A stretch of DNA of 64,000 nt, taken from Kappaphycus alvarezii. Taxonomy: Eukaryota > Rhodophyta > Florideophyceae > Gigartinales > Solieriaceae. The notes under the pieces are model-generated. The model searched no databases. It was given only the letters and a program-made list of their open reading frames with translations, and had not been told where the DNA came from. Positions 8,606 through 44,049 of the stretch are shown here, piece by piece. Each line of letters starts with the position of its first letter. Within the stretch, counting starts at the first letter, position 1. Made by a program: the position numbers and the translations under genes. The stretch spans positions 62,001 through 126,000 of the forward strand of contig NADL03000069.1 in the NCBI GenBank assembly GCA_002205965.3. The letters run 5' to 3'.

Positions 8606-8610
8606 TGTTA

Positions 8611-8625: not shown

Positions 8626-8639
8626 ATCGTCGGCATCGT

Positions 8640-16713: not shown

Positions 16714-16722
16714 TATAAAAGG
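16714..16722 (+). promoter_or_regulatory. TATA box of peptide gene copy 1
   Basis: TATAAAAGG lies 120 bases before the ATG at 16834. The two paralogues have TATAAAGG at 127 and 126 bases, so the promoter layout is shared. Confidence 0.65.
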
Positions 16723-16833
16723 CTGCCCCTAACAGCCACTTCTGCTCCCGAATTTCAATCTCATCAACTCCTATAACTCTTCATTCGTCAAGGATCTCAA
16801 GACTGCTCAAGCCAAATCGTTGCAATCATCAAT

Positions 16834-17110
16834 ATGTCTCGTCTTACTCTGCTTCTCACTACTGTCCTCTTCTTCCTCGCTGCTTTTGCAGTTGCCATCC
16901 AAGTGAAGACATTGAAAAGGAAAATTTCGCAAATGGGATCTAATGGAGGATACAGTGCGCCCTGGGGCGATATACAGGGGTCCTTGCGGAGGTCGGGGCC
17001 GTGCCGCAAGCCAATGTAGAGCCATGATGACCGATGACTCCAACTGCATCATCCAGGGATGCCAGAGGGGAACCAGACGTGGCTTCCGATGCACATGTCG
17101 CCCTGCATAA
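16834..17110 (+). pseudogene. secreted six-cysteine peptide, copy 1 (frameshifted)
   Basis: A clear signal peptide starts at 16834 (MSRLTLLLTTVLFFLAAFAV). The cysteine domain is present at about 16955-17107 but in another frame: GPCGGRGRA, CIIQGC, RGTRRGF and CTCRP are all there, ending at TAA. Compared with the intact copy at 33854-34132, two small indels disturb the acidic linker: one base near the end of the signal peptide and another just before the EDTVRP block. As read, translation from the ATG gives signal peptide plus an unrelated tail that ends early. No GT-AG intron restores phase. The cysteine region itself is well kept, so the break is recent or is a sequencing artefact. TATA box and spacing are intact. 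Confidence 0.75.
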
Positions 17111-20100
17111 GATAGAAATGTGGAACAGGTCTTGAATGTAGTGAACGAGCTAAGGAATAGCAGTGCTATAAGTACACAACACCATTGCACCTGATGTCAT
17201 TGCTAAGTGTTGCAAGAAGCACAACTACACACCAAGTTTGCTCTGCATTCCGGTTCGAAATTAGTTGCCCTTCATCTATTTTCCTGTTACATTCGTCCTT
17301 ACAAAAGCCTATGTTCCCGTGTAATAAACATCTTGCATTACAGCGATAAGACTCCCTGTTTGCGCAAATTTTCTCCATTTAAGATGTTGAGAAAGGGAAT
17401 ACACGAAGAAAGAAGTAAAATTTTCCTGAATACATAGGAATTCTTAGGTCATTTTACGGGCTGTCTGACTGCGTTGGGCTTATACGCCATATTGAATGTA
17501 GAGTTTCTGCAGAGAATCTCGTAATGGATCCCTTGACTTAGTCCCAAAAGATATTAATCTGGCTGAACCTGTCACTAGAAGCTCATTTTACTGCTCTCAC
17601 GCAACGGTAACATGCAAAAAACATTTTCTTCCAACTGAATCCAAAAATATCAAAATAAACCTTTATAGTGGAATGCAGACATGCTTGATGTTTTCTAATT
17701 CAAGGATGGAGATTGCAATAGTCAGTCTAAGGGAATGTGAAATTTTGAGCTGTTCTCTATACTTTTTCCCAGTTTTTTAATGAGTTTTAATGCTATAAAA
17801 CTTGAGAAAATACTTCTATCTGTTTCAAATTTCCTTCCATTGATCCTGAAAGGTGGAAATGTCTTTATTTCACTTCCAAGACTTACACATACTGTGAGTG
17901 ATCGAAGTATGTACGATCCTTATTTATATTGTTCCTACTTTTTTCCATATTCTAACTTCATTTCTTAGTACTGTTACTCGAATGGATTTGATAGCACAAA
18001 GGATATTTTTGTTGCATCTATCCTTCATAAAGATACAAATTGGATGCTATTATTATTTTAAAAATAATTTAATACACATGATTGAGCCTAATTTGTGTTT
18101 ACAATTTTCATTCAACTGCGTAAATGAAAAATGTTACAAAGAATAACCTCTGCTCTGCACTGCAGCAATAAGAGTCTTAAGTTGCTAAACATATTTTCAC
18201 ATAATAACGCAATCAAGAGATTCTCTCCAAACATAAACTGTTAGATTTAGGTTATATGGCTATTAGTTAAAGGCAATTTGTAAAAAGATTAAAAGTTAAT
18301 GGAATTTGCATTGTTAATTTTTAAATCTATCTATTTAATAAGAATCTGATCTCATGAAGAATCCTTTATGATTGGTTTTAACGTCGAAAAGTTCTAAGGA
18401 TAAAATATTGATAGTTCTTTATGACACTACTGGACACCATAGTACTTTGTTTAGTGGACGCTCGAGAAAAATCAAAAAAGTGCCTAGGAAATCCATCGGA
18501 AGTGCATTGTAAGTCGTTACAAATTCATCGTAGAGAATTCTTCCTTGACGTACTTATTTGGTACAATTATAAAGAAAAAAGGCAAAGAAAAGACGTATGA
18601 TATTTATGAAAAAGGTCATAAAAGCCTTGAAAGTCACTCAAATGCTTCGAGATTAAAAATTTATGATTAAAAATTTTAAAACTTGGGCGTTGAATAAGCT
18701 GATGGTTTCTATATGAACTTCAAAAGAAACTGTGTTTTTAGATGTTGAAAGTCTGCCCTTTTGATAGTATTTGGATGTTTTTTCTGCCTTTCTCTTAGAC
18801 GCCAGTATCTCAACGAGGATCTGCTGGGATTAATAAGATTTTTACACTGTTTAAGTACAAAAGTTCAAAGCTTTGTAGGAGCCAATAATCAGAATATCTT
18901 CTTGATTTCAATAAGTATTCGAACAAAGAATATGTGTGAAAGAAATATTTCATGGGTTTAAGTGGAATATTAACTCCAATAACGACTCTTAAGTGCACCA
19001 TTTGTTTATAAATATTTACTAGAAAATCAGCTATTAGTCTATGTATATTTAGATTAAAGAAATTACCAAGCTATTTACAAACTATTTTGAAGAAGATGAG
19101 AACCCCATTTATTTCTTTCTCTTCAATATTCCATTCAAATATATTACATTTGCAATCTTCTTTTGACGATTCATTAAATGTTTTTATAAAGATGTGAAAT
19201 TTTTGGATAATTTTGAAACGGTAATAACCTTCAACAGAGATATTTTGATCTACAGGAAGGTCTGAAGGAATTAAGAACTTCTTACTTGACTCACTATAGA
19301 TTTTGCTCTGAAAGACTACAAATTTTAAAACAGGAAACGTGCATACTAATTGTACAATTCTCATTAGTAATACAAACAGTGAGCTCAGAGAGGCTCGTGG
19401 ACAAATGGAGGAGATGGGAGATCCAATTTTAAAAAAACTGAGACACGTAATACGATCTTAGCAGAATAATTACAGTTCTATTGAACTCTGTGGGTTACAA
19501 TCGATTGATTTTTGGACTTCTCCTTTTATGACAATATTCTTTTTATAGTCCTCAAACATAAGGATTCCTTTTGGTTAAATATTAAGCGGTAGAAAAATTC
19601 CTGATTTCCTTTTCGCCCTCTACTTATATAATTGTTTTTTATGCTCACATTTCTTTCTTCTTGGCTCGTCCGTCGGCCTTGGCTTTTCGTAAGTTTGATA
19701 TAGATACCCTTGCCTTCGCTAACATAATATCTTTATCTTGGAATGCAGACATTTTTCTATTTTTTGTACAAATATATACTCGGTCTTAACCATTCGATGC
19801 TCAAAAATCACTGTAATGTATCTCAAAACAATTGCGCTGGCCAAACAATCACTACAAGTATATTATCGGTGATTACCATACCAAGCTGTAGGATTTGGAG
19901 TGACATTGTCGGTTTTTTAGTTGAAGAACTATTTTGCTCCAAGGTTCAACTTTGACGAATTCAGGTGCCAGTGGTCCGCCTTTTTCGACGAATAGAGAAT
20001 GTGCCGAGAATGAGCTCCAAAATGACTTTCTGTCGGACTTTTTGTCTTCTCTACAACTGCTGTTCCGAAGCAATCATTTTTTGCGGCTCCAACTCTTTAC

Positions 20101-21100
20101 AATCTCTACTTGGCCCCGTTTACAACTGTGAAGTACTTTTGTTTCTGTTTTCGCGAATTCTTTACTGCATGTAAAAGATTCTCTAATTCGTAAACGTCTC
20201 GTTTTAGGCATACATGAAAATACCTGGGTCAAACTTAGGTTGAGACTTGGGTTAAAACTGGCTGGATGTAGTCGATACTCCAAAATATGATTTTATGTAG
20301 AATAGCAGATAGCCGGTTGCTGAGGGAACCGGTAGTCTAGTCGAATCAATTTCCAAATTTACCCATAAACCAACTCTGAATGTGCCCTAATTTGGAAATC
20401 CAAAAGTTGTATACAGCACGAGTTACTCACTCCGAAAACATTTAAAACCTAAATTCTTCCAGGTTTCATCGGAGAGCAAGGCAGATTTTGATTGATAAAG
20501 TAATAATATAATATCGTATTCTTCTAATTTCTTGTAAATATTCCGAGTGTAATGATATACTAAACATTGTATCAAGAACTATAAGGAAAACTGTAACGAC
20601 GACTAAGTGTGTAATATTCTAGGCTATGAGGTTACCATTGATTTCAACCGAAACTGTACGAAACGAAATCTTTTAAACCTATCATGGCTGCGAAACACCA
20701 AATTAAATAGTAGGGTACAACTGCTTACAACAGTACCACTCCTCCCTACAGGGAAGAATCGCGCCGATTATAGATTTTCTACTTCTAACTTATCATATAT
20801 TATTGTGAATTTTAAAGCTATTAATTTAGATGTCGCGAACTTTTGATTTACGTACCACTTTCTGTGACTAGATACTAATTTTTACGCCGTGTTTCTTGTA
20901 AATGAGAACATGATTCATTATTCACATGTCCACGTTGAAATTTGAGAGTTGACTGAGCCATAATTTATGAGATTAAAGCATCTTTGGAGATCGAATTCTA
21001 GACGCTAGCTTGAAATGAATTGTATATATCTTTGTCAATAATTGATTGTGATAGCTTCGCATGGTTCTTAATGCCGTTGACATAATCTGTTATCTGAAAC
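17111..21100. other. AT-rich, gene-poor block
   Basis: Strongly AT-rich with only short frames. A 97-residue minus frame at 19071-19364 is unrecognised. I take the block as decayed repeats together with the gypsy traces further right. Confidence 0.5.
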
Positions 21101-21116
21101 TGATCAAAAAACTTTC

Positions 21117-21155
21117 GGTCAAGCAAACTGAACTTCCGGTTCAGTTTGCTTGACC
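21117..21155. repeat. perfect 17-bp hairpin with 5-base loop
   Basis: GGTCAAGCAAACTGAAC (21117-21133), loop TTCCG, then the exact inverse (21139-21155). It stands out in AT-rich, decayed surroundings. Confidence 0.8.
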
Positions 21156-21269
21156 CACCCGTATGTTCGATCGAGAATCTCTTTGTTAAGAGCCAAAAAA
21201 GTTTCATCTGCCTTGAAATTAAATGTTCGTCTCTGTAATGTTTTAGTATTTCTCTGAAAATTCATTTTC

Positions 21270-22600
21270 TTTTCTGATGTAATTGTATGCATAACTTAGT
21301 GTCTCTTTAATAACGTTTAGAAACCCTTCTGATGCGGGCTTATCTGATGCCAGAATTTCCAACCGTACTTTTCTTGTTGAAGTCCATGAATGGGTAAGAA
21401 ATTTGAGAAATTAGTGTTTAAATTCAAAACTGAGCAATAAGAAAAATCAAAGCCTACCAGGTACTTATCCTACTACAATTATTCCAAGCTAACGATACAG
21501 CAGATCATTTACTCAACTTTTCTTGTCAATATCTCTGACGTTTCATCAGTCTGTGGATGATAAGCGGTATCTTTGTCCCTACACTAGCAAGAGGTCTATT
21601 CAAAATCCGCTAATACAAATGGTATCTTGGTCATGCATGAAATTGAATGGTATTCCATGGGGTGTGTAAATATTATTCCGGAATAGTAGAGCTGTTTCAG
21701 GAGCATTTTCCTTGGTATCTTTGGTATTTTCTAATCATCGTAGAAGGTCTATCTAACAATTTCGACATCCCGGAGGGAACATGCTAGATTAAATCCGATT
21801 TAAAATATTACAATTACAAATCGCTTATATTCTATTCCCCTTTTTGATCAATTCTAAATATCCCATTTAAACATGCAGTGGTACTCATGCAAAAAAATTG
21901 ACCTTTAATATTCCTTTTGTACAAGATCTTTCTTTTTCTAAGTGAACGAATCATGTCACACTCAAATATTGCCCTAGGGCCTTGAAACTTGGTTTTGAGA
22001 TTTTAATACCTACTAAAGTCTTCTTGTTGCCCTACTTACTCCGTTTTCGTAAATTATATGGTAGTAAATGTTTTGTTGTAAGAATGTCGTAAAAAGAACT
22101 TCTTTGAACAGTTAATTGTTCCAAGTATCATATTAAGAGACATCTTATAATTTTCTTAACAATTCATATACCGCTTGGTTTCATTTTTTGAGATGAGTAT
22201 TTTCATTAAGTCCAAAATAGTAGTTATTCCGGGCGGTTCACTTGTTTTGGCGACAAGTTTTTTCGGAGTAGTACATATCTTCAGGTATAATGCTCCTAAT
22301 GAGCCATGAATAAGTTTCCATGACTAAGTTATGTAAAGTTCCGATCTCAAATATTGTGTGATTTTACATTGACCGACAGATCTCTGATCGTCTTAATTGT
22401 TTTGCTCTGCATTATTAAGAATGTTGGACGAAAGTTTAAACAGTCTCCTCGAGCTCGATTCTCCTTTTTACCAACACGGCGCAAATTGGATACTTATATG
22501 CACCCGTAACTAAGTAAATGGGACATATAGCTTCAATGTTTTGATTACTGGTTCAGTACAAAGTGATTCCATCAGTACTTCAAATGATTCATATTTGTCG
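21270..22600 (-). mobile_element. decayed Ty3/gypsy remnant: RNase H then integrase
   Basis: On the minus strand, 22510-22463 reads TGAYKYPICAVLVK, matching the TDAS.YAIGAVL block of gypsy RNase H. Downstream on that strand, 21580-21513 reads DTAYHPQTDETSEI, matching the STAYHPQTDGQSE integrase block. Order and spacing (about 0.9 kb) fit one gypsy pol. Stops and shifts are frequent, the first catalytic Asp of RNase H is Gly, and no LTRs were found. Old and inactive. Confidence 0.55.
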
Positions 22601-25600
22601 CGACTTCAGAACAGAATTGAAGTTCTTCGTTAAATCCCTTCAATTTCTAACTCAAATTGAACAACTTTTAAACGTGTCTCTCTTCGTAATAGACAGAAAT
22701 TATAAATCCTGTACATTTTTCTAGTTTGTGGTACTTTTCATTCGATAAATCAATTTACCTTCTTTGTCATTTCATTAGGTTATTTCAATGAAGGTTGCAT
22801 TTGACCTAAAAGTGGACAATGTGCCTTTTTTCTGGAGAAAAGTGGTATAGCTTGGGTTTCCTTGAAAACTTGAAATTCATTCTAATTTTTGATTAGGATT
22901 AAGAACTGAATTTGGGCCTCGATTCAGTTTTTTGGGGTTTTTGGATATTTATTAGCCATTTGGTTCTCCTAGCTGTAGCTAGAAAGAGGACATCCGCGCA
23001 TACATCCTTAAAGTTCCAGTTCGTAGACCTATTTTGACTTCAATTACAGTTTCCTAGTACCCACTTCACTTCTACGTTCTCGATACTCATTTTACTTAAC
23101 CTGCTTATCCGGAAATAAGAGCTTCCAATTCCATTAATTTCTTCTGAAAAAGTTTGCTGGTTAGCCAGAATATAACTTAGATGGGCCAATTGAACTCGTT
23201 CAAAATCTCTCAACCGGTATGGGGGATTGAATTATTACTTTATTTAATATCTTTCCAGATTTATGGCTTCAAACAGATTTAAGATATATTTCAGATTCAT
23301 CTGTACTGAAAATTATAATTTTGTTGAAATACTTGTTGAGGAAAATAACATCATTGACTTTTATTTCAACAAGCGACTGTCTCTTTGTTTATAGAGTATG
23401 AACCATTTATGTGACGGAATCTATGGTATATTGCGGTTTTCAATACCTATTAGGTGCAAAAAGGATATAAAAAGTGCATCTTAATGTATAGCAATGGAGT
23501 TATGACTTATGTCTGTAGACGTTGATATGCATATACACTATTTCTGAAATACATGGAGTGATTAAAATTTCCTTCGATAGATTTTGGCGTAGCTGTTGCG
23601 CAGAGTGCAGCAGATCGGTTATAAAAGACCGTTGAGATAGAAATATATATCTGCGTATTACTTATGTAAAGTCTGCACCCATTGACTGACTATTAAATAA
23701 AATGAAATTCATATATTTGTGAAAATAGAGTCGTCAAAAAGCTTCATTCTGTTAAAACATTAGCAGAGGGAACTCTATTTAAATGCATTTTTATCATATT
23801 TCAAGTCAATATGAAAAAATATTGGTAAGAAAAGAATGCTTTAAGTCGGTCATGCTCAGTGGGGCTGGCGGTAGAATCGACAATGAAATAGATGTTTTAG
23901 CGTAAAACTTATGGGCCGATAGAGAAGCCTTGACATAGCTCTTTGCTACATTAAATTTCTCCGCAATATGCGAAATGTACCTCTCTAAGAAAAGAATGGA
24001 AGAAGAGGATAAATAATCCAGCAAATCGAACACCAGGGGCTCAAAGATGAGTTGGGTGCCATGAGCGGTCGTCTGAGTAGTTCAGCAGGCGGCAAGACAG
24101 TTTGGGCTCAAAACTATCTGAAATATTGTCTCGGTGAGCGATATTCACGGCGCTGCTGGAGAGATGTGCTGTCGTTCACGTATGATTCTTATAAACGAAG
24201 AGATGAAGATAATTTTTCAAGCTATGGGGATAGTCATTTGCCCACTACGCAGTAGCAGGGGTTGCACAAGAATATCCATAAATCGGGTATTTGTTCCGGG
24301 GACAAGGGACAAAACCTCTCATTGGCAGTCTAGATCCGCTGCATAACCAAAGTTGTAGGCGGATACATTGCGAAGCAAGTTCTGGAAATCCTTGTGAACC
24401 AAACTGACTTGGAAAAGAATACAAAAGTGACTTCTGAGTGTGTGCATATTTTCTTGTCGTCATGCGATGACTGGGAATGATTCATCGTAGATTGAGGGTC
24501 CGATAGGTCAGGGAATCATTTTATACTAGGGAACCGTTTGCACGGCCATGGTGGTGGACGTGTGAGCGAAGAGGTATATGGTGGTGGGACTATTCCGGGA
24601 CGCGGGCCGCGCACCATAAGTTGTTGCGGTCAGCTGGGGTTAGTTGCGCCAAAAATGAGTCGTCACGCCGATAGTTACTTTTTTATGACTCCTTCTACAC
24701 ACAAATTATTTATCTTCGGAGGCTTGATAGTTTGGCAGCAAGTAGGGTTGCAATGGCTTTCGAAAATCTTCATGCTTTATGTTCTGCTTAGCATACCTTT
24801 CACCTTCAAATTTCACCCTTCGTGGCCAATTTGTTAAATAAAAGTAGTTCTTGACGAAATGGTCACAGTTTCAATTCCCGCCAAGAGCAAATGCAAAAAA
24901 AGTGACTCAAGTTTTGATTAAAGCCGCGTTTGATGTTGCCCTCGACAGGGAGGGTTAGTGGGTCTGAAAATGAAGTTGGGTATTAATACCAGGGTTTACA
25001 CAGCAATCTTACTGTTTTGACGTTAGGTTCACTCTTAAAAAACTCGCTACTTCATTCTGTAAATTTACAGAATCCCAGAAACTTAAAAAATGGACAATTT
25101 GAAACAGTAATTCAGTTCTTTTTCGAACTCTTTGAAAGCTTTCAAATTTGCGTAGAGCACATTTGTCCACTAGATACATCAATCCAGTGCACCTTTTCCC
25201 CAAAAAAATCGAAAAGGAATTCTTATGTGACAAAATATGGGCACAACTTCTCATGCAAGTCATAGAAGACGATAGAGTTCAAGTAAGCCACCCCAAAGAT
25301 GTACTCAGAGACGTAGATGTAACTAGAATTCCAATAACTATTATGGAATCAAGGGTCGCTTCCTTAGTTCAGCCGATGGATGCAGCTCTACAAGCCATAA
25401 TAATTCTGAAACCCTCAGGCACCTTACAGAATCAAGTTTCTTTTTCGGGATGAATTCTAGAATGGAACCAACATATTTATCCGTCTATAGTGCGTAGCAG
25501 TGAAATGCAGCAATAAATGCAGCCAGCCATCTACTGTACCCGAATGAATGGAGGTTTTAATCCTTACGAATATTTGCATCATTACCTCTTACTGCATGAA

Positions 25601-25928
25601 CGCAAGTACTTTAAGACATATGATACAGAGTAAACTTCCTTACCTGACAATAGTACAGCATGTGGTTACCATTGCAGTAGAGTTTTCTACGCTTTGCTGT
25701 CCTACGTGTACATTACACGTAATAATTCTACCCTCAACAAGTCTACATATTCTATTCTAATACTTGAACTCCTTCTTGCCTTTATGTCTGATGTGAGGAA
25801 CAGAACTACTTTGCTTGATGTACTAAACTTGAGGGCCTCAAATGATTTAGAAATAACGAATATTGTACAACGAGACCTTCGGAAACCTATCCATCAAGTC
25901 GGCCTTTTCAAGAACCAGGCCTTTTGCA
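22601..25928. other. no assigned gene; short unrecognised frames at 23806-24033 (-) and 24052-24840 (+)
   Basis: The AT-rich block continues to about 24 kb. From 24052 the composition is less AT-rich and has frames of 60-100 residues (for example SSSAGGKTVWAQNYLKYCLG near 24073), none with a family I recognise. Perhaps further mobile-element debris. Confidence 0.35.
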
Positions 25929-26039
25929 TTCGATGGGTTACAATCTTTTAGATCTAAATATAGTCTGATAACGAAAGTACTTGAAGCATTACTGGATGAG
26001 CCCTTGGGCTCGTCAGTATACTTCACGAAACTGGGATAG
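25929..26039 (+). mobile_element. Ty3/gypsy reverse transcriptase fragment
   Basis: One short frame reads KYSLITKVLEALLDEPLGSS then VYFTKLG, ending in TAG. It matches the KYPLP.I..LLD.L..S..FTKLDL block that holds the first catalytic Asp of gypsy reverse transcriptase; here that Asp is lost. Flanking frames are too decayed to extend the call. Confidence 0.45.
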
Positions 26040-29000: not shown

Positions 29001-29825
29001 CCAGATAATGACTTGATCTACAGCTGCCTAGGTACATTAATTGAGTTAAATCTATCTTCTGACTACTACCGGGATATATTCTGAGCACGAAACGTACGAG
29101 AAAACTCTTAATGTATAGGTAAATATAGTTTGCTGCAATATATTTTCTGGATTTACATGACCATTTCAGTCGTTAAAGTATTCTCTAGAAAGATAAATTC
29201 CCATCTAATGCGGCAATGCAGTATACCTGTTTTCATTTTCGTTACTGTATCAAATGTGGAGACAGAAAACATTTAATTCATCACTGACTGAAGCAATAAA
29301 CTGCTGTAATTAATGTTTTCCAATCCTTTAAAAGGCATAATATTCCATCAAAAACGTCATCTTCAAATATTATAAAGAATTTCAGGAATATTTTTCAAGG
29401 ATAATGGAGATGCTCTGATACATTCAACGACACTGAGGAGAATATCATATCCTCTCAATAAGACGAATACGTTTATGATACATATTCGCAAATAGCGGAT
29501 ACATCGCTCTGCGTTTTAAATATGTCAAATTAGCTACCGTTACCGAACTTTTTCAGGGTATCTATTTGATCATGTGGGCATTCTGTGAATGAGAGTAAAA
29601 TTTTATCCTGCAAAATCATAGTTTTCTTGTATTACTAGCTACAATAATATTCAAGTCAAAAACGAAAAAACAGTCAAAATGTAGTTGAGTAATCCGATAG
29701 TATCGTAAAGAGGCAAATATTTACACTTTATTAATGCACAACATGCTAAAATCGCCTTAAATCTGCCATAATATCAAAATAGGAGATAACTGCGCAAGAA
29801 CTACATAGATCTACATGATTTAAGA
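26040..29825. other. AT-rich, no gene seen
   Basis: Only short frames and A/T runs. I see nothing to support a gene or a recognised element. Confidence 0.5.
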
Positions 29826-31119: not shown

Positions 31120-32056
31120 AGGGGAAATTTCGTCTCATGGTTTTGTGTGTAAAAGAAAATTGGTAGGAAGAGTTGTTTTTAAAAACTTACAAGGCAGAAG
31201 AATAGTTTGTGGGTATGACCGCCTTTCCTACGGAGAGGACCGTTTTTATAACAAAAAAATAACTCTTTTGCAGAAAAACAGGTATCATTCCTAATTGGGT
31301 CGCAATTATTTCCCACTATTATTGTGGAAGTTTAAAATGAAAGAATCAAGAATCTTTTCCAGTTTCGACAAAACATTTAGCATACTATAGGTTCGACCAA
31401 TTTCGAAACCTTCATACATTTTTACATTTTTAACGTCAAAGACTAATGAATTAGTGAACCTTATTGAGAACATTGATTCAAATGTTATGATGGTCGGGAA
31501 CATATACCGAGATTGCGTAAAAAGTCAAGGACCTGAACTAATTTCACGATATTTATGAGATCTTAGCAAGATTAATAAAAATACTTACTTAGGGAAGAAA
31601 TTACAATATCTTTTTATGTTCCTTGATAAATTTCTGGTTCTTCATATACTTAATATTGCGAATCATCCCTTTACGATCACCTCTTAGATACGAACTAATT
31701 TGCAAAATCAACTTATTGAAGAAATATGCTAATCTGAGTATTTATCTCAGTTTCGTGAGACGTGTATTGGTGTTCACTCCTCTCCAGTATAAAGATATCC
31801 TACCCTATTTTGATGTCTAACCTAAAACCTCTGGTGTCAGAGATCATAATCCTCTTGAAGTAGGCGGGAAACTTCATGCTTCATTGTGGAGAAGTTTGTC
31901 AAATGTTACATGAAACGTGGCTCATCTTCAAAAGAAAGCTTTCAATTGAGACTAATAGAGCAATGAACGATACAGTCTGAAAATATGTTAGTTTCTTGGC
32001 CTTTTTTTGGAACACAACTTCGCTTCTCGATTATGAACTTTGTAATATCCACGTAG
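31120..32056. other. no gene seen
   Basis: AT-rich; only short frames in either direction. Confidence 0.4.
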
Positions 32057-32383
32057 AGAAAGTATAAATATCGTTTCCTACCAGATGATTTTGTCGCTCA
32101 GGGCCTTATTAATATCGCGCTACACACTGATACTGAATATCCTCAGGAAAGACCCTACATTACTTTTGAAGGGGTTCTCTTCACCAGAGATAAAGAAAAT
32201 AATTGGTGTGAATTTACACCTTTATCTATTCCCGTGACAAAATTGTTTACAGTAGAAGCGCAGATTCTACCGTCCAGCATTTTATTACCAAACAAGCGAA
32301 GTCTCTACTTCTATGAACCGAATGAGTATCTCGACAGCCGGTTTGAGTTTGGTTCTCCCTTTGAGTTGTATAAAAATATCTAG
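32057..32383 (+). CDS. uninterrupted 108-codon frame without ATG, unrecognised
   Basis: From the stop at 32054 to TAG near 32381 the frame is open and has a protein-like composition (PDDFVAQGLINIALHTDTEY; PYITFEGVLFTRDKENNW; SPFELYKNI). It overlaps a second frame (32313-32591) containing KADFNRAKQKEIIGFIKVST, which loosely resembles the segment just before copia reverse transcriptases. Either a piece of an old copia pol with a frameshift or an exon of an unknown gene. Confidence 0.3.
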   Translation, partial: RKYKYRFLPDDFVAQGLINIALHTDTEYPQERPYITFEGVLFTRDKENNWCEFTPLSIPVTKLFTVEAQILPSSILLPNKRSLYFYEPNEYLDSRFEFGSPFELYKNI

Positions 32384-32677
32384 AAACTTTTTCGTTCCAC
32401 AAATGGTACCTATAGGCCCATCTTCAGCGACTAATACTACAGAAATAATCCATCCCAATAATCTACCAAAAGCAGATTTCAATCGAGCTAAACAAAAGGA
32501 AATTATAGGATTTATTAAAGTCAGCACATGGGTAAATTTCAAACAGCATAACACCATTGACTTCCCCTTGCCTTTATTCCATTCAGAATAAACAAACTGA
32601 AATTTCTCGAAGTCGATATATCAAACTTATAGCTCCTCAATTATGGAGAACTGTGGCAAGAACCGAGCGGGGCTTAC

Positions 32678-32753
32678 CCAAAGGCACGCTGCCATGGCCG
32701 TGATATACAACGCAGCTTGCCTGCTGGCCGGTCGAGAGCCGGCCTTTTAGGGC
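32678..32753 (+). repeat. R1 5' half
   Basis: AAAGGCACGCTGCC, GGCCGTGATATACAACGC, CAGCTTGCCTGCTGGCCG, CCTTTTAGGG: the first part of R1. It includes GGCCGG...CCGGCC, a short stem. Confidence 0.5.
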
Positions 32754-33083
32754 AATTAAGAGGTGCAACTGGTTATTCCCCCTCAATTAGTATCTTGAGT
32801 AAACTCCCATGAGAATAAAAGTATAATTTTAGAACACCTAAACACCGAAAACGGGAATAGAAGAATGTAACCTTCAGATGATTCTACTTTGGCGGATGCA
32901 GTAATGCACTGGTACTTCCTACTCAAGACACCCTGTCATAGTTGTTGGAAGTTGAGGGCAACTCTCCTTGAGCAACGCGCCGTGTTTATGGTCAATTCCA
33001 GCTCAGATTGCTTGTTGACTTAGGTACCAGCCACTTTTTTAGTTAAAATAAGCCGCTACCCGTACAGTCGATGCTGCAAAACT

Positions 33084-33235
33084 TTGAATAGGAAAAGGTT
33101 TGGGTGTTTTACTCTTGGAAGATATATCTGATCCATCCTATGGTTTTCCAGACAACCGCAATCGATTCAAAAAGGGTATACCGACACAGTAATGGGAAAG
33201 GAACTACGATCTCTAAAAAGCTACTTTCAGGGCAA
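33084..33235 (-). repeat. R1 dispersed repeat, good copy
   Basis: Reverse-complement orientation of 8039-8181: AGGTTTGGGTGTTTTACTC, TTGGAAGATATATC, GGTTTTCCAGACAACCGC, AAAAAGGGTATACCGACAC, then TTAGAGATCG-equivalent and CTTTCAGGGCA. Confidence 0.75.
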
Positions 33236-33853
33236 ACATTGAATGCAAATTCATGGGCCTCTTAAGTATCACACCTCTCGGAGTAAAGTTGCTTCATTTA
33301 ATATATTGAGATAATCATTTGGATCATCTCTACTTGAACTTGCTTCCTTAGTGAAAAATGACGTGTCTCGAAATGTTCTGTTGTCGGAAGTCAAACTTTC
33401 AGATCAATTTATATATATACAAATAAAAAATAGATAAAAAATTGTTTTCATTGTCAGTCTTCAGCTCATAACCAAGGGAATGTCAATACTTTCAAAACGA
33501 CAGGATGGGAAGGAATAAACCGACAGCCAAATGTATCAACTTCCCAAAAAAATTCAACGCAATAGCTGCCTGTGTCGGTCTGCTATTAACCTCTAAATGC
33601 TTTTGCTAGTGTGACTAGTTTCACATTGGGATATGTTTGTAAAAAGCAAGGGAGGGTAATTTACGGCAAAGATTGTAACGAGACGGGATGAAAGGGAACG
33701 TATCTCTAAACGGTTGACGACCAGCTGTTCTTGTCCAAATGTACTATTAAAAGCCATGATCTTAACCTATTTCAGCTGGAGTGATAGAGCGTACTTCTGA
33801 CACTGTCCTTTTCTCCCCCTCTACACCGTTCCGAGCTCCATCATATTCTTGTC

Positions 33854-34132
33854 TTAAGCGGGACGGCAAGTGCAACGGAAACTACGGCGCCTATTTCCAC
33901 GCTTACAACCCTGAATGATGCAGTTGACCCCGTCAGCCATCATGGCTCGGCATTGAGTGGCGGCACGGCCACGACCCCCACAAGGTCCCCTGTAAATCGC
34001 CCCAGGGCGCACGCTATCCTCTATCATATAATCACTGGCGAAATCTTCTTTGGACTCCTCATTTGGGACGGCAACTGCAAAGGCAGCAAGAAAGAAGAGG
34101 ACGATGGTGAGAACCAGAGTGAGATGGGCCAT
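33854..34132 (-). CDS. secreted six-cysteine basic peptide, copy 2 (intact)
   Basis: 92 residues, start at 34132, stop TAA. Residues 1-21 are a signal peptide (MAHLTLVLTIVLFFLAAFAV). Residues 22-41 are an acidic linker (ESKEDF...MIEDSVRP) that may act as a propeptide. The mature part is basic: GPCGGRGRAATQC, CIIQGCKRG, RRRSFRCTCRP. Cysteine spacing is C-x9-C-x9-C-x4-C-x10-C-x-C, predicting three disulphides. I know no named family with this spacing; the C-x-C end and Arg-rich core recall defensin-like antimicrobial peptides, which is inference. No intron. It lies alone between repeats. Confidence 0.85.
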   Translation of the reverse strand: MAHLTLVLTIVLFFLAAFAVAVPNEESKEDFASDYMIEDSVRPGAIYRGPCGGRGRAATQCRAMMADGVNCIIQGCKRGNRRRSFRCTCRPA

Positions 34133-34252
34133 GACTGCAAATGCGACTTATCGGCGATTGAGTTCCTGTAGTCTGAAGGTTGGTGTGGTAGCTGTTGAGA
34201 AATGTTGCGAGTGTGATGTCTCGAAAAGATCGAGGATCTGGGCCAGGTAGGC

Positions 34253-34260
34253 CTTTATAA
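34253..34260 (-). promoter_or_regulatory. TATA box of peptide gene copy 2
   Basis: TATAAAGG on the minus strand, first T 127 bases before the ATG; same place as in the other two copies. Confidence 0.65.
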
Positions 34261-34269
34261 GGACTAAAC

Positions 34270-37049
34270 TGGAGAGTTAAGGTCGTTTTCTTTCAGCTCC
34301 GTGTGTTAGTAGTAACTCTGGATAAAGTCGCAGGGCTATGTGGGTTACGAAAAAATTGCGATACATCATTCAAAACTTTGAACACAGCCTTTCAGCAGCA
34401 ATCTTCAGCTGATTCCATCATATTCTTATTGAATGTGATCGTTTGCAGAAAAGCATATCTCGCATTCATGCAGAAATAGCTCCTGGTTTCCTGCGAAGAC
34501 AGCAAAGGATGAATTTCTACACAAGCTACAGAGTCAAACTTGTAGCTGCTAGATTGTGTTCGCTAGCTGAAGGAGCGCTTCAAGATATTTTCAACTGCTT
34601 TCATAAAACAAGACTGAAACAGGAGTAATTTTTTAAAACGGAAATGAATCTTGAATCACATTTCATTTCCACTTCAATCGCTCTAATGAGGAACTTAATA
34701 CAAGGGAAATTGAGTCTGCTGCTAGATGATTTTTATGTTATGCACAATTCTGTTTATTCTGTCTATCGATTCTGAAACCCTACATGAAATAATCATGCAT
34801 GTGGAAATAAAAGATTTATACGAGGGTTTCATATATTTGGGCAACTGTGAAGAAAACTAGCGCTATATTTCTGCGGGATGGGATCATAGTGTATATGTTT
34901 TGCGACTGTAAGTATTTTCCAGTTCATCATAATGTCATGTAACCGTTAGCCTAGATCAAACAGTTGGATAGACAAATTGAGGAGATAATCTAGGGGTTCA
35001 ATCAAAAATTGGTCAGGATGGGCATGAAATCAGCCACAATATCCTGCTCAATTCTGCGCCCCCTTGTTTGAAAGCGTTGCTCATAAGCAAAAAATTCTTC
35101 AAAGGGATAAATATCTCTGATAGTAATAAATCTCTGTTGGGCTCACATGTAATGTCACATATTGTAGTATACTTAACAGGCAAACTATGAGGTCCAAATG
35201 TCTCATTCTGATTTGGGCTCAAACCAAAGGAGACTTGTGTTGCTTTATTGTTTGAGAAGAGATTCCAGCTAAACTTAGGCAGTTAATTCCAGAGGGATTG
35301 TTGTAATGGGTACAGGATATACAAAAGGATTTCACTGTCGCGTATTCAGCGAATGAAATGTAACGAAATAGAACTCTTCACAAACTTTAGTAGTTTTACA
35401 CTAGAACTGAGGTGGAAGAAGTTTGCAGCGCAGTATTCTTGTGTACAGAAGCTACGTGTATGCGTGTGAATTGAAGCGTTATTCTGACGGTTTGCGTGTT
35501 AGTTTGGAGTTGCTTTGTGCCTGTTTATGCGAGTGGTAACGTTTTGTCTCATGATGAAACAGGGCTGTGCATACTGCGATACTTCGGATGACCGAAAAGT
35601 AGGAAGATTTTTGAGAGGCCTGAAGTAACAGAAATTGGAAGACGTCTTAATTCTATCCAGAAAGCTATGGGGAGACCAGACGGCAATTCGGTGGCATTTT
35701 GAGTCAATGGCAGCGCAAATACTGTTATCATTTTACTTATGCTGATTCGACAGACTCATGCTAGCAAGAAAATTCAGAGTGGCATTGTCATCAGGGAAAG
35801 AGCACCATGTACAAAGTGTGTGTAACGACTATATGAATAACGAGTGTTATATATGATATCCCTTTGGTGCCTTTCTTTTTGCTGCAAGGTCTTTGTTATC
35901 AAACAGAACAAAAAATGGTAGCTTGGATACATGATTGAAGTTGTATTGAGGGGCCAGATGTGTGGAGCAGAATTACAACACAGTACATAGTCACTCTATA
36001 CGCAAAAGGGCAAGTGTGTTACGAGGGTAATGAATTTAAAAGTTGAGTAAACATGAATATCTGAGGTGTACTGTATGCACTAGGGAAATTGAAAGACACA
36101 ATTGGAAGACTGGGATTGAAATTTGATAGATTGTTTGGAAATAGGGTGACAGTTTGGGTGCTTACTACAAAGCGACACTGACGGTTTTGTCGCGTGAGAA
36201 GGAGGTACACCTAAATGTATTCCCTGTCTTCATCGGGTGCACATTTCGTAGGCAGGATGAATAACGATTCTCTACTGTACCGCACTGCCTTGCTGGATGG
36301 AAGGAATATAACATGAAGAGTGACAAGGCAATAACTTGCTTTGTTAACTGGGCTACCAGGTACTTGGTGGAAATGCTCCGTTAATTCCACTGTGGATTCT
36401 GAAACATGGCTCGGACTCTTAAAACTTCACACCATTCGCAGTAAACAACCATTTGCTTCGTAATAGCAGTCCACGGAAGGATTACAGCGACATCGATATT
36501 TTGAAAAAGGAATCCAAGAAATGATCTGTGCAGTTCTAAATAGCACCTTTGCGTCGTGTGGATTCGTGGTTGAGATTCACGATGGGGCGTAAGAGGTTTG
36601 CCTTGGGAATATGCATGACGATATTGAGTGGCAGGGTACAGGGTACATTCTTTCCAAAGAAAGGGACAAGTTAGGTTTGCTTACTGAGAGAGTGTGGGCA
36701 GAGTTCCCGAGTTGGCTGCTATTAGAAATAGGAGCTGTCATCCACGACTATGTTTGGGGGAACACGGAGGTCATGCACTGAGACAGATATGCTGGCTTAT
36801 ACCTAGTCAAACTGCAATAGTACAGTACTATACACCACTATTGCCAGCCAATCCCTACCTCTCTAGCACGGTAAGTTGGCCCTGCAGAGACAAACCGGTG
36901 GCTATCTCATACTCTCATAACCTCAGCTACGCGCCCAGTTGGCGCATAGAGTCTTTTGGAGTTGACTATGATATCATGTGCCCAGTCTTCAGCAAAATTT
37001 GTTGTTCTATGCTCCTTCGAGATGCTTACTGGAAAAGTGTGTTGGTTTA
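34270..37049. other. no assigned gene; R2 fragment at 36781-36815
   Basis: Short frames only. ACAGATATGCTGGCTTATAC then CTAGTCAAACTGC at 36781-36815 is an R2 piece (+). The frame 36694-37050 overlaps it and is probably not a gene. Confidence 0.4.
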
Positions 37050-37101
37050 ATGGGGAAACGTTTGGATGTTTTTACCCTTGGAAGATATATTTGATCTATC
37101 C
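37050..37101 (-). repeat. R1 end module, solo
   Basis: GGGGAAACGTTTGGATG, TTTTTACCCTTGGAAG, ATATATTTGATCTATCC. A second partial one is at 37815-37850 (GGGGAAAGGTTTGGTG, TTTTGTTCTTGGAAG). Confidence 0.6.
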
Positions 37102-38261
37102 TAAATTTAAAATGTAGCCAAAGTCTTTCTAGCCACCATATCTCGCCTGGCCTCATACCCGTGTCGGCCACGGCTGCGTGTGTCAACTATGTTTACTAAA
37201 GTATAACCAAAGAGTTGATCCATTGAAATGGAACTATACTGCTTTGGCACTATACTGCAGCCGCAAGTGCTACATAGGGGCGGCTTACGTAGAAAAAGAG
37301 TTGGCTCATCACCGAATGTGGACGTGCGAGAGGTTTCGGTGGACAAGGAGTTGATCGCATTCCTGTTGGTCTTGGGCTATGAGAATGGGGAAGACAGCTA
37401 CACGAAAAGATAGGAGACCCAGAAACTTCCACTGAAAGTATCAAACAGAGCAAGGCATCTACGGCTTTTTAACATGTTCCTTCGCCTTCAAGTGCGGATC
37501 TTAGAAAGATGCTACAAACTGTACCCCGGGCTGACAACTTGGAAGAAAAAAATACGGAGCCGCTTTACAGCTCGGGTGAAAGGGGGTTAATGTTTGGTTT
37601 ACTGCGAATGGTGGAAAGTTATGAGTCGTATGAATTTCCATTCGAGAAGCCACGCCATCCCTCTACACCACCAGGGGCTATGAATGACGGTACTTAGACA
37701 ACGGTCTCGATGAGAGAGAGGTGCAGCCAGAGCACAGCGGTCACAGCATTTCGATCTGCAGTGAAAATGGGCTAGACGGGCAGGATTGGGCGTGCCGCAC
37801 TTGACGACACGTCGCATGGGGAAAGGTTTGGTGTTTTGTTCTTGGAAGTCATGTTCGACTAGATTCCTAGAGTACGCGACTTTTCAAAGGGGAAAGGTTT
37901 CGGCGCACTACTGAAACTTGGTTTGAACGCGAGTTCATTGGGCTCCCAACCTCGCACCACGAGTAGAAATCAACGCCACTGACTTTCCCTTACTTCTTAG
38001 ACACACTGATGGTTGTGTCCAGAGTGGGAGGCAAGCACTTGTCAGGGGAGAGGGGAGATTATGAGGCCTGAATTGCTTCGGAATGTGTTCATGTTGGCAC
38101 ATTTCAAGGGCATATACACAGTTCCAACGCTGTTTTGAGCTGTTCAGTGAGAAAAGAAATGTACATTATACCCAAATCGGTTTGTATCCATCAGAGACAA
38201 AAGCAAAATGGGGGAGGGTTGGGTGTTTCATTCTTTTTTAGTTACTTCTACAGTAAAATGT
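37102..38261. other. no gene seen
   Basis: Short overlapping frames on both strands; R1 ends at its left edge and at 37815-37850, with a further GGGGAAAGGTTT scrap near 37890. Confidence 0.35.
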
Positions 38262-38740
38262 CCTCTACAATGCTTTGCATCGCTTCTGCAAGTTGGCATT
38301 ATTGCTCTACTGGAACACCCCTTCCACCTAGTTCCACCTCTTCTTTTTCGCCTTTGGCGCTTCTTGCTAACCTTTACATTCCAGAGGGTCACGATCTCGA
38401 TCAGCGCGACTAGCCTTTAATATTACTGTCGCCCATCCCCTCGTCCAATCCCGAGTCCACCAGGCGCTCTGTCCGAACCCGCGGAGCAGCCCACGCCGAA
38501 CGTTCCATACATTCGCACTACGAGGAAGTTTTCCTCTCCTACGATGTTCTGCTTACTCCCATAGACATCGACATGTAGGCTGCCCTCGGGCTTGAAGGCT
38601 TTCAGTTCTTCCGCTGCCGTGCTGCCCACGTCGCCACGCGCCACAATACCCTTGCACATCAAGAGTTTCACGATTCTCCGCTTCACCTTTTGCCTGCACG
38701 GCATGCAAGCCCGTCAGGGACCTTTCCCCCGTTTTTCCGA
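38262..38740 (+). mobile_element. LINE 3' fragment, decayed copy
   Basis: Reads QVGIIALLEHPFH, then FNITVAHPLVQSRVHQAL, then HYEEVFLSYDVLLTPIDID, in different frames. These correspond to EVGIVALAEHPLL, VDVTVALP and QNDILLSPVGIDIYG of the LINE at 13366-14451, in the same order. A TAG interrupts after PIDIDM. Locally GC-rich. Confidence 0.65.
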
Positions 38741-38904
38741 TTACTTTCTACCCCACTCCATCCCGGCGCCTCTGAGTGTTTTTCCCACCGCCGTAGAGAC
38801 CCCCGCATTTCTATTTTGCCACTGATGTATGCTTGTTTTGGAGCATACTGTATATTTGACAAGCCATAGGGACAACGCAGTCTACAGAGATGCTGTAGAG
38901 AGTT

Positions 38905-39393
38905 TTAATTTCCTCGTGGAGTCGGGTGAGGAGAAAGGTTCGGGTGTTTTACTCTTGGAAGATATATCCGATCTGTGAGTCGGGTAAGTGTGGCGCGTTT
39001 GCCGGTAAAGAAATCGGGGGAAACATAAAGACACATTGCCTTGACAGCACTGCTGCGCGTTTTGGCCAACATCTTCATTACAGTAAATGAACTCCCCCTT
39101 TCCCAGTTGTCGCTTGCTGCATAGGGGTACCTTAAAGGGGGGTTGGTTACTTTAAAGTATGGAAGATGTAGTCGCTGGGAGGGGTGACCGAGAAAGAATC
39201 TGGCTAGGAAGGTGGGTATATTCGCTGACCTTATAGAGGAATGATAAGGACGTAATTGGTTGAATGAATCGGCATCACGCTTCAAAACAAAGATTATTGC
39301 TGCATCCATGCCTATGCACAATAGAAAAAATGGTACGAATGGCCAAGTCACCTCTCGATACATATCAATAACATGACTGCGAATGAGCAGCAC
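38905..39393 (-). CDS. hypothetical 162-residue frame, doubtful
   Basis: An uninterrupted frame with one hydrophobic segment near the start (WPFVPFFLLCIGMDAAIIFV). Its last 20 residues (RIYLPRVKHPNLSP) are the translation of an R1 end at 38930-38972, so at least that part is not an original gene. No family recognised. Confidence 0.22.
   Translation of the reverse strand: MLLIRSHVIDMYREVTWPFVPFFLLCIGMDAAIIFVLKRDADSFNQLRPYHSSIRSANIPTFLARFFLGHPSQRLHLPYFKVTNPPLRYPYAASDNWERGSSFTVMKMLAKTRSSAVKAMCLYVSPDFFTGKRATLTRLTDRIYLPRVKHPNLSPHPTPRGN
38930..38972 (-). repeat. R1 end module, solo
   Basis: GAGAAAGGTTCGGGTG, TTTTACTCTTGGAAGATATA, TCCGATC. Clear copy. Confidence 0.65.
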
Positions 39394-41167
39394 TTTACTT
39401 TGAGCGCCAGAGGTCTTCAGATAAGGGGTTGATGGGGTAAATAGGGTGTTATTCTCAATTTTATGGTGTAGGGTTACTGCGAATGGTGCAAAGGATACGG
39501 TATGAGTCTACAAACGTGCATTCAAGCAATGTGGTAAGATCTACAATAAAGTCATGGAGCGTGTCCACCAACTAGAAAGTAGCTGATAGCTTCGCATAAG
39601 AGCTGTGAAGATCAGTTCGAAATCATGGAGCGTTACACCCTCTACTAGTTAGGTCTTTAGGGACTTTTGTTTCAATCTGGATCAAATGTTACATGAATTT
39701 CGTGGCTTCACTGCTGTGGACGCAGTGATTGGACCATCAGATTATCAAGAGATGTAATCTCCCTTGTACACCTCTACACATCTTACATTGTGAAAGAATT
39801 GTGGACTCGTCTTGAATTCAATTTGTTGTTGCTGACGCATACACCACTTGTTTCACTAGATTTTTGCATTCATTCGCCTTGATTGTAACTGCAATCAATA
39901 CAACTAAGCGACGTATTGTCACACGTCGACATAAAATCTCCTTTAACTACCTTTTTTTTGTTGCCCCCAAAAAATTGCAGCTGCGCTTGAAGTGACACCA
40001 CAGAATTTCACAAAAGTCAAGTTTTTATTTCAGTATTTCTCAAATTCAGAGCCGTTCAGCCTAGTTCAACCTCTGCTGATCACTCAAAAAACTACCTCAA
40101 TCACAAGTTCTTTTTCACTAGAATCAGCATCAGAGCTTCAGTCCGCTGTCCGCCCCACTTCCATTCCGCTTTTTAACTTGTACATTTTGCGATACTTGAC
40201 TTAATCTTAGCGCTAACACTATATTTAAACTATTCAAATAACTCAATATTAGTCGTCACTAATCTTATTGCTGTCACAATTGAAATCTCCCTTGAAATCG
40301 GCGGCTGCCAAACCCCTTTCTGTCTCAAAATCGAAATAGAGCATCCAGCTGTAAACTATTGTCCTCACAGAATAATTTCTACGCCCAAATTACCCAACTA
40401 CGATGTACAGCAGCAACACACAAGAGTTGATATCATACTATTTGTTCAACATCACATAAACTGGTCAACTGGTCAAAACTATAAGGGTATATCATAACCT
40501 AGGGTTTTTGTCCCACCCTTTCGCAAATCCACCCTTTCGACCACCTTCCCTAGGTTCCTCCATGTCGTGCCACACCTCTTTTCTTTGTCCAGGCAGAAAT
40601 ACGAACATATCAGCGCCACTCCGTGTGGTGCCTTTTACAAACGACCACTTCTTCAATACATTGAAGTAGCCCAAAAAACCTTCCTTTTTGCCATTCAACT
40701 TGGAGCCTCATTTTTGAAACTTTGTTTCATTCATACATTCCCACTCGGGCATAGTTAAACCCCACCTTTCAAATACTAAAGAGCGAAATCGTCCCCTTCT
40801 CGTTTCTTTATTTCGAAAACCATTACAATTCCCTATCCACGTACGAAATATTACCATTTCAGGTTTCCGGTCCCTTATCTTAAGAAACAGGGAACCGAAT
40901 AGGAGAGGAATCCAGAAGATCTAGTAATGCTGAGATATTTGAATACAAATGCTTTTCTTTCGTAGCGAATAAAACCCCATGGCTGCAACAACTTTTTATG
41001 AGAATCTCAGCCCGGCCTTCACGTTCTCAAATAAATCGCTGTGGCTCCTATCCTTCCAGCCATAATCTCGTTTTTATTCGTGGTCATTCGAAAAATATAT
41101 AAAGATATTTAAAAAGCCACACATAAAAATCTTAGTCCGAAATGTTACACTGTAAACGTGGGAAATG
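39394..41167. other. no gene seen
   Basis: Only short frames. Nothing recognised. Confidence 0.4.
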
Positions 41168-41235
41168 GGCGGTTCATTTACTGTAACAGATAAGTTGGTT
41201 CAGGCCTAGTTAACTTGTGTGGTAGTAATGAGCAT
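41168..41235 (+). repeat. R2 dispersed repeat
   Basis: GCGGTTCATTTACTGTAACA, GATAAGTTGGTTCAGGCCTA, GTTAACTTGTGTGGTAGTAA, TGAGCATGTATG. Downstream GCAAGTAGAGGGAGG is also shared with 46270-46285. Confidence 0.55.
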
Positions 41236-41620
41236 GTATGCGAAAGGTTACGATAGGCACTGATGGTGCTTTACCCTATCAGCAAGTAGAGGGAGGTCAC
41301 TGTAACACTGCCAACCTGTTATCGCCTGTATTCTTGTACCTGCCATGCTCTAAACTCCGAGATACTTGAAAGACCAATCTTTGTTCTTAACGGAATTTGA
41401 AATAAACAAAATCTTGCTGACAGTATCACCCTTTTTCAAATAACAGAGTCCACAATGTAAATAGGAGGTGCATGTGCTAGGGAACTTTGCAGGGCTGAAA
41501 ACCAGGGAAGTTTTAAAGTGGGCTCTGCGTGACGGAGAGGATGACTGATTTATTCATGCCCTCTGGGAAGAAGTATGTAGGCCCAAAAAAAATTTCACTC
41601 TTGCTTGCTGGCTGGCCTGC

Positions 41621-41774
41621 CTTCCACCTTCTGGTAGATTGGAGTGCCATCTACAGTTTTCGACGCATTGAACGGTTTCAAAATTGGCTTGGCCATGATA
41701 CGTATCTACGCTCCGGTACAAATTTACTGGTACCAACCCACATATCTACCACAGTAAATTAACACCCCATTTCC
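41621..41774 (-). repeat. left arm of a 155-bp inverted repeat pair
   Basis: Inverted relative to 43840-43996: CCACCTTCTGGTAGATTGGA, GTGCCATC.ACAG.TTTCGA, CGCTCCGGTACAAATTTACT, CCAACCCACATATCTACCAC, AGTAAATTAAC. The outer third is related to R2. The arms enclose about 2.07 kb with peptide gene copy 3. Confidence 0.75.
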
Positions 41775-42234
41775 CCATATTTACGCAAAGGGACAAGGTG
41801 TAGGGTGCTTCAATTTTGAAAAATATCGTGGTTGTAATCCGGCGTTGTAGTGTGTAAAGTGGGGCTAACTGATGGAAGGCCACAAGGGTTGCCACAGTGT
41901 CCCTTAGAAGACCAGAGTAAGACCAGTCATAAGGCTCGCAGCGTTTGGTGTCCCAACCGCCGCATATCTACATGGCACGCACATTACTTATAGATGGATG
42001 TTTTGCAAATAAACATAAAGTGCTGTAGCTGCTTTCTTGTTTGTCAGTCGCTGTAGTTGTACTTTTACATAGGAATAGAATGGCAAATTGGTCATAGCAA
42101 ATCAATCCCTAGTCACGGAGGTGGCCTTCTCAGTCGCTAATCTTGCCAAGACAAATTCCCCAGGGTCAGGGACACCCTTCTACAACGGCATTCTGCGTTA
42201 ATTGTAGCGCCGAAAAATGCATGTCTGTTGATAG

Positions 42235-42385
42235 GGCTCGCAGCACCTTTTTAGTCGCTGTTCCGTAGCATAGCACGCCCATTTTTACCGGAGTGTTTTC
42301 TCCACCGCTGCCACACTGGACAGGTTAACAGGAATTTCACCCTATGTTCCACTCGCAGTAAACTACCCAAAACTTCCCCCTAGTC
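42235..42385 (+). repeat. R3 dispersed repeat, copy 2
   Basis: CCTTTTTAGTCGCTGTTCCG, CACGCCCATTTTTACCGGAG, GAATTTCACCCTATGTTCCA, CTCGCAGTAAACTACCC; counterpart of 6825-6960. Confidence 0.65.
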
Positions 42386-43289
42386 AAAGGAAACAAATGT
42401 GCCTTACACTTTCCTCTTCAGTTTCTAGAAATAATATCATTTATAATTACAAAATTGCATGTAAGCCGCACCTTTGCTTTTTCTTGCGCCTTACTTCCTT
42501 TTTCATAGCCATGAACCTCCTAGAACACCTCACGTACCACCCCTATCTTTTCGAATATTTTGCTTTCCTAAATTGTTATTGAATCGGATTGAGTATATTT
42601 GAAAACAGGCGGTTGCTAATACTAACGGGAACGTATCTAAATTCTACCCCTTTAGCAGATTTTCTCTTTTAGGAAGAAAATATGTCAATTGAAGATGAGA
42701 TATATTTCTTTTTGTCAAGCAGAAGTGATATTCTTAGACATGATATCTAATTGAACAGGAATTTGATAGGGGATTATGTAGATCTTGTTGGTGACACTAA
42801 GATATAAAGGCTTCAGTACTTGTTTGAACGATTTTTGTAACTGTCACAGCAAGCGTCTCAAAAAATAACCCGGAATACTTTTTCACGGGTTTTAAGCTGA
42901 AATAGACTTGCAAAAGTTGTAAATCTTTGCAATGAATCAGCGTTATTGTAAGAATAAATCCGTTCCCGCACCTTCTTCGGAGAAAGGCAAACTTTTGATC
43001 GAGGTAAACGTCATTAAATTACCTAAAGAGAATGGTATATTCACGGACCCTGAATATTCTTGAGAGGACAAGAAACGAGAACAAATCTGTTTACTGGTGG
43101 TATTCACGAATTCTACCCAGAAACGACTTCTCGACAGTAAGGACATTTCAGGCACTCTCCCGGACACACTCGATTTCAATACTAACTAGTTTTCCTGACC
43201 AGCCGAACAACCAATTTCTGGAAGCGTCGCTACATTTCGTAGAAACTGGAATTATCTACTTGTTGCTAATGACTGCAACTTCTTCCCAA

Positions 43290-43553
43290 TTACGGGCGAC
43301 AAGTGCAACCGAAACCTCTGCGAGTTCCACGTTTGCAGCCGACGACCCTGCAGTCGAGAGTATCGTCTTCCATCAACATCATCCTGCACTGGCGAGAAGC
43401 ACGCCCACGACCTCCACATGGTCCCCTGAATATAGCTCCCGGACGAACTGTGTCTTCCATAGTATCATCCATAGCGAGATTCATGTCGGAAGCAACAGAA
43501 ATAGTGGCCAGGAGAAGGGCCAAAAAGGAGAACAGAAATGCTGCGCGGATCAT
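43290..43553 (-). CDS. secreted six-cysteine basic peptide, copy 3 (intact)
   Basis: I choose the ATG at 43553 because it begins a signal peptide (MIRAAFLFSFLALLLATISV) and gives 87 residues; the frame stays open upstream to 43706, but that part crosses the TATA box and has no signal. Layout equals copy 2: signal peptide, acidic linker (MDDTMEDTVRP), then GAIFRGPCGGRGRASRQC, CRVVGCKRGTRRGFGCTCRP. Spacing C-x9-C-x11-C-x4-C-x9-C-x-C. Stop TAA. Signal peptides of copies 2 and 3 differ greatly while the cysteine core is conserved. The gene lies within the inverted repeat pair 41621-41774 / 43840-43996. Confidence 0.85.
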   Translation of the reverse strand: MIRAAFLFSFLALLLATISVASDMNLAMDDTMEDTVRPGAIFRGPCGGRGRASRQCRMMLMEDDTLDCRVVGCKRGTRRGFGCTCRP

Positions 43554-43671
43554 TTCGAGGATCTGTCTGGTCGGTTGGTAGAGGAGATTCAGTTTTCGAG
43601 CCGTTGATTGCGTTTCGAAGAGTTGTCGTGGTAGCAGATCTGTGTGCACCTCATGTTTTGCAACATGGCTA

Positions 43672-43679
43672 CCTTTATA
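43672..43679 (-). promoter_or_regulatory. TATA box of peptide gene copy 3
   Basis: TATAAAGG on the minus strand, first T 126 bases before the ATG at 43553. Confidence 0.65.
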
Positions 43680-43839
43680 CCCACAGAGAGTCCTAGAGAG
43701 TGCCACTCATTGTATGGTTTTCATTGTTTGGTATTATGCAGTCGCTATTGAGGAATGTATCTCGGCTTGTCGGCATGTTAGGGAGGAGAGGTCATCCTGG
43801 AATCCTTGATCCTTACAGGATGTGAGGAAGTTAGTGTGT

Positions 43840-43996: not shown

Positions 43997-44049
43997 GGCC
44001 AAAGGTAGTTGCTGACATATTTATTTGTTACAAGACCACATCTCAATCA

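Follow-up and report, generated by a model that had tools for sequence, protein, structure and literature searches.

Short frames encoding basic, cysteine-rich peptides recur in repeat-rich DNA of a Kappaphycus alvarezii assembly, and they raise the question of whether they are genes of one family and, if so, what their products might do. The stretch analysed, referred to here as the window, comprises 64,000 nucleotides (C69:62001-126000). A sequence-only reading of it had described a dispersed family of secreted six-cysteine peptides with a shared promoter layout, possibly defence peptides or effectors.

Peptide genes in the window

The three copies lie 9-17 kb apart and on both strands, as first described, and two are open frames. 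Copy 2 (33854..34132, minus strand) encodes 92 amino acids that divide into three parts: a putative signal peptide (residues 1-21; 34070..34132), assigned by hydropathy and the -3,-1 rule; an acidic spacer that is a putative pro-piece (residues 22-47; 33992..34069); and a basic six-cysteine core that begins at a conserved arginine (residues 48-92; 33857..33991). Copy 3 (43290..43553, minus strand) encodes 87 amino acids, with its basic six-cysteine core at residues 43-87 (43293..43427). The residues between successive cysteines number 9, 9, 4, 10 and 1 in copy 2 and 9, 11, 4, 9 and 1 in copy 3.

Copy 1 (16834..17110, plus strand), which had been counted with the other two, is not one open frame. 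As assembled, its translation meets two stops, and its signal start and core lie in different frames. Its core (16976..17107) is open by itself, has all six cysteine codons and encodes a 41-residue peptide identical to that of open copies. Comparison with one of its open relatives (L010) shows that two single bases are deleted between signal and core, which may be real losses or errors of assembly.

The TATA-type boxes of the three copies are where they had been reported. The box of copy 1 (TATAAAAGG, 16714..16722, plus strand) lies 120 bases before the ATG, and those of copy 2 (TATAAAGG, 34252..34259, minus strand) and copy 3 (TATAAAGG, 43672..43679, minus strand) lie 127 and 126 bases before theirs.

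A family clustered on six contigs

The peptide family is real and larger than first noted. We searched the genome (336,021,096 bases in 884 contigs) with copy 2 and with a member of another subgroup, and the resulting 57 and 49 rows, merged by hand, gave the identical 45 places, which is a lower bound. Two weak rows of the copy 2 search were excluded, one on C29 (E 0.037, matching the signal part only) and one on C710 (E 0.30). A third genome query, the database protein P0122 considered below, returned 46 rows that cover 44 of the 45 places (the one on C687 near 1.594 Mb is absent) and added none beyond them. Because all 45 places are confined to six of the 884 contigs, the family is better called clustered than dispersed: 16 places are on C603, over about 630 kb, with 15 on C687, 7 on C170, 4 on C69, 2 on C223 and 1 on C791. 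Neighbouring places on one contig are spaced 1.4-68 kb apart, except for gaps of about 270 kb on C603 and 1.2 Mb on C687, and the largest family-bearing contigs reach 2.2 Mb.

More than the coding sequence is shared between copies. Within fetched stretches of about 5 kb, the best copy-to-copy match of most copies runs over 1-5 kb at 87-99% identity; for L013, L019 and L046 the match is shorter than 1 kb. Two copies on C603, L010 near 190 kb (plus) and L011 near 216 kb (minus), lie 26 kb apart in opposite orientations and encode the same protein; their flanks are 97% alike over 3.4 kb, and the pair is by sequence a recent inverted duplication. Elsewhere on the same contig, L014 and L018 pair with the window at 31408-36231 (copy 2) and 42009-46198 (copy 3) at 83-90% identity, with the order of copies and flanks preserved. 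These counterparts are either diverged haplotypes or an old duplication.

An open single-exon frame with the six-cysteine pattern is present at 32 of the 45 places, and the other 13 are broken. Many of the insertions and deletions examined in the broken copies fall within short single-base runs, which fit slippage and long-read consensus error alike, so true decay is not proven. Since the 32 open copies were chosen by their six-cysteine pattern, cysteine conservation among them is partly circular. The broken copies were found by homology, and 11 of the 13 also keep all six codons; the remaining two have a gap at one cysteine and a stop at one cysteine, respectively.

A conserved core and promoter box

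The open frames share one layout, in which a hydrophobic signal of about 21 residues is followed by a mostly acidic spacer, an I-x-R motif and a basic six-cysteine core of about 45 residues. The 32 open copies encode 28 distinct proteins. Of these, 27 have a strong hydrophobic stretch (that of L012 is weak), 26 satisfy the simple -3,-1 rule at residue 21, and 27 carry I-x-R before the core (the exception is L015). The spacer has a pI of 4.1-4.4 in 26 of the 28 (5.4 in L045 and 6.9 in L046), and the core pI is 9.7-11.5 in every one. The 1277 pooled core residues include 277 Arg, 8 Lys, no His and 71 Asp and Glu, and the core net charge in open copies is +6 to +11. L015 alone among the 32 has a seventh cysteine, and L012, L015, L045 and L046 carry compensating insertions and deletions relative to reference copies. 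With L012, L045 and L046 as exceptions, the layout is by sequence that of a prepropeptide (signal, acidic pro-piece, basic cysteine-rich mature part), and the varying acidic linker looks like the pro-piece. We infer from this anatomy that the product is probably secreted and cut after the arginine; the hydrophobic signals, the core pI and the 45 places bear out the first description of a basic, six-cysteine family of this kind.

The core is the conserved unit and is under purifying selection. From pooled pairwise counts in four groups (A, 4 sequences; B, 2; C, 10; D, 12), which take in 28 of the 32 sequences and omit L011 (its protein is the same as that of L010), L013, L015 and L046, core dN/dS is 0.06 in A, 0 in B, 0.40 in C and 0.13 in D. 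The corresponding values are 0.63, 0.12, 0.38 and 0.31 for the signal and 0.76, 0.16, 1.77 and 0.16 for the spacer, the 1.77 having few silent changes behind it. The core is thus the lowest region in groups A, B and D, whereas in C it is not below the signal. Pooled over sites, dN/dS above 1 was not seen in the core of any of the four groups. Between groups (C-D and A-D), pS is 0.66-0.80 and core pN is 0.22 and 0.24. As an illustration rather than a test, given that only cores of that exact peptide were compared, one core peptide is encoded by six distinct DNAs that differ at up to 16 of 123 bases.

Upstream of the frames, 28 of the 32 open copies have a TATAWA that begins within -140..-118, against a background expectation of about 0.019 per copy for this 23-base stretch; it is absent from that interval in L033, L037 (minus), L043 and L044. 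Grouped at 70% identity, the upstream sequences fall into 10 clusters, and the box is present in 9 of the 10, with one member judged per cluster. The conserved position is partly due to common descent. A shared core-promoter layout, as the sequence-only reading had it, is borne out, and the box position, the 45 places and the selection on the core together set the family beyond chance.

Relatives and possible roles

In keeping with the earlier reading, the searches matched the family to no named relative. Among 5.8 billion proteins, a search that depends on shared short exact words, and that is limited by short genes often being unannotated, returned only two unnamed predicted proteins that belong to the family, P0001 (E 3.9e-21, 57% identity to copy 2) and P0122 (E 9.6e-24, 47% identity). 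P0001 has 68 amino acids and no evident signal. In a family tree of 34 rows it falls on the A/B side (support 86/83), a hint that the subgroups may be older than the split from its source, and P0122 is weakly placed. Pfam and NCBIfam profiles gave no convincing family. With copy 2 as sole query, no solved structure matched by sequence at E<=10, and a fold search of the models against the PDB gave nothing at E<=0.001 and no convincing match. The core model (5-row alignment, mean pLDDT 74) has a helix at 7-16 and strands at 22-31 and 36-44 forming a hairpin; the full-length model (4-row alignment, pLDDT 60) has strands at 46-50, 70-77 and 84-90 and a helix at 56-66.

Several known families invite comparison. 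CSalpha-beta defensins, and the Pfam families AtDEF-like (PF25052) and SCRL (PF06876), resemble this one in probable secretion, in a C-x-C near the end and perhaps in the modelled helix and hairpin. AtDEF-like reached 15.9 bits against a curated cut-off of 25, and SCRL 15 bits against 23, each in 1 of 21 members (P0001 in the case of SCRL). In CSalpha-beta defensins, which have a beta-alpha-beta-beta fold, a C-x3-C on the helix pairs with the C-x-C on the last strand, and the gamma-core reads G-x-C-x3-9-C; the present family lacks C-x3-C, its second and third cysteines being separated by 9 or 11 residues in each of the 32 open copies, and has G-C-x9/10-C, in which G and C are adjacent. The fibronectin type I module, likened to the family by a short C-x-G-x-GR run, has four cysteines and a different fold, and its best profile match (PDB sequences, E 0.16) is not significant. 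Close in layout are mammalian alpha-defensin precursors, with a signal, an acidic pro-piece, an Arg-rich six-cysteine part and a gene cluster. They differ in cysteine spacing and lineage, and the core of the present family is conserved.

We favour, tentatively, the reading that these genes encode host-defence peptides that would be freed from an acidic pro-piece. The original suggestion of a defence peptide remains plausible given the signal, acidic pro-piece and basic cysteine core seen by sequence. Our model, inferred from the genes, is that prepropeptide genes of an apparent red alga form a family evolving by birth and death. A TATA-box promoter would yield a short single-exon message, and a signal of about 21 residues would take the product into the secretory pathway. 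The basic core would be shielded by the acidic spacer until a cut after the conserved I-x-R removed it. Once released, the peptide (about 45 residues, net charge about +6 to +11, positive charge almost only arginine) would be locked by three disulphides and could bind a constant polyanionic target. Its likeliest role would be gene-encoded host defence against surface microbes, in a mode like that of an alpha-defensin precursor though presumably without kinship to one. Some findings count against defence. No antimicrobial family exceeded its cut-off in the profile searches; host-defence families often diversify in their mature part, and here dN/dS in A, B and D is lowest in the core; the presumed cleavage site is a single arginine, not a dibasic one; and the less acidic spacers of L045 and L046 and the weak hydrophobic stretch of L012 depart from the layout.

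A constant core with nearly all its bases arginine suits a fixed polyanionic target, either microbial surfaces or sulphated galactans, and the cell wall could supply such a target no less than microbes could. The main rival to defence, somewhat unlikely in our judgement, is a structural or regulatory wall peptide, whose secreted Arg-rich core would bind, cross-link or organise sulphated galactans. Such galactans frequently make up a main part of the matrix of red algae (PMC10311240). The Arg:Lys ratio of 277:8 and the core pI would suit sulphate binding, and a constant core a constant ligand, but this role does not demand an acidic pro-piece or a large decaying gene cluster. If binding to the sulphated wall is its role, the family would contribute a protein component to a matrix of commercial importance.

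It is conceivable, if improbable, that the product is secreted as a signal or as a ligand for recognition, for instance in mating or development, and sensed by a cell-surface receptor; the SCR ligands of self-incompatibility in plants are likewise small, secreted and cysteine-rich. P0001 has its sub-threshold match to SCRL (E 0.029), and Foldseek lists chains of 5gyy, which we take to be the plant receptor complex SRK-SCR, at ranks 3 and 28 (E 1.3 and 3.1). Both matches are within chance, and numerous copies with near-identical cores speak against ligand-receptor specificity.

More improbable still is that the peptide belongs to a parasite, epiphyte or endophyte in the assembly, perhaps as its effector or toxin. 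The beta-tubulin of the assembly (L050, contig C458) is, by sequence, that of a florideophyte red alga. Among the best 120 of 7980 rows, L050 is 78% identical to Gracilaria, 77% to Hildenbrandia, 72% to the fungus Basidiobolus and up to 97% to archive proteins. In a tree of L050 with 18 rows hand-picked from those 120, it falls in the red-algal clade (100/99), within a clade that includes Hildenbrandia (100/99), and groups with Gracilaria and archive rows apart from Hildenbrandia (100/98). The tubulin genes are not on family contigs, we found no DNA common to tubulin and family loci, and the tubulin loci have a higher G+C (0.48-0.49 vs 0.41 in the window), a weak contrast because coding loci are set against mostly non-coding DNA. 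Nevertheless, the contigs that carry the family are part of the same assembly and reach 2.2 Mb, and by this co-occurrence they appear to belong to the alga. The effector reading is weakened because the core is conserved, not diversifying, and the tubulin is florideophyte. A functionless set of dead repeats or chance frames, for which one might cite the 13 broken places and the repeat-rich region, is hardly credible when core dN/dS is 0-0.40 with silent change saturated between groups, the TATA box keeps its position across upstream clusters, and P0001 and P0122 exist elsewhere.

Returning to host defence, it is possible, although we regard it as doubtful, that red algae own gene-encoded defence peptides that are arginine-only and six-cysteine, with a private framework and a large cluster, independent of animal, plant and fungal defensins. 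We found no defensin-type family from red algae among the titles and abstract openings searched, which does not prove absence, and the words 'defensin' and 'antimicrobial' are absent from the main text of a review on the matrix and immunity of algae (PMC8307928). If the peptides are antimicrobial, the immunity of a major multicellular phototroph lineage would gain a peptide arm built on a cysteine framework of its own.

The window holds other features. A trypsin-fold gene (PF00089) at 5091-6171 (plus strand) is spread over two frames, and an intron is presumed near 5717-5825. It reads TAAQC for TAAHC, its GDSGG run is altered (judged by eye across the intron), taking TAAHC and GDSGG as the usual templates, and it has a hydrophobic stretch near the C-terminus; the product may be a protease homologue that is anchored in the membrane and inactive. 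Another frame holds a signal-like start, at 4996. Pieces of a copia-type retrotransposon (Retrotran_gag_2, SH3_retrovirus) occupy separate frames at 53495-55763 (plus strand), and the frames at 8478-8765 and 13147-14451 (plus strand) both contain MLCCVLDSCKKSYRRLFVQREHKIRNSYHCYLLLRCSRTPSF, probably a dispersed repeat.
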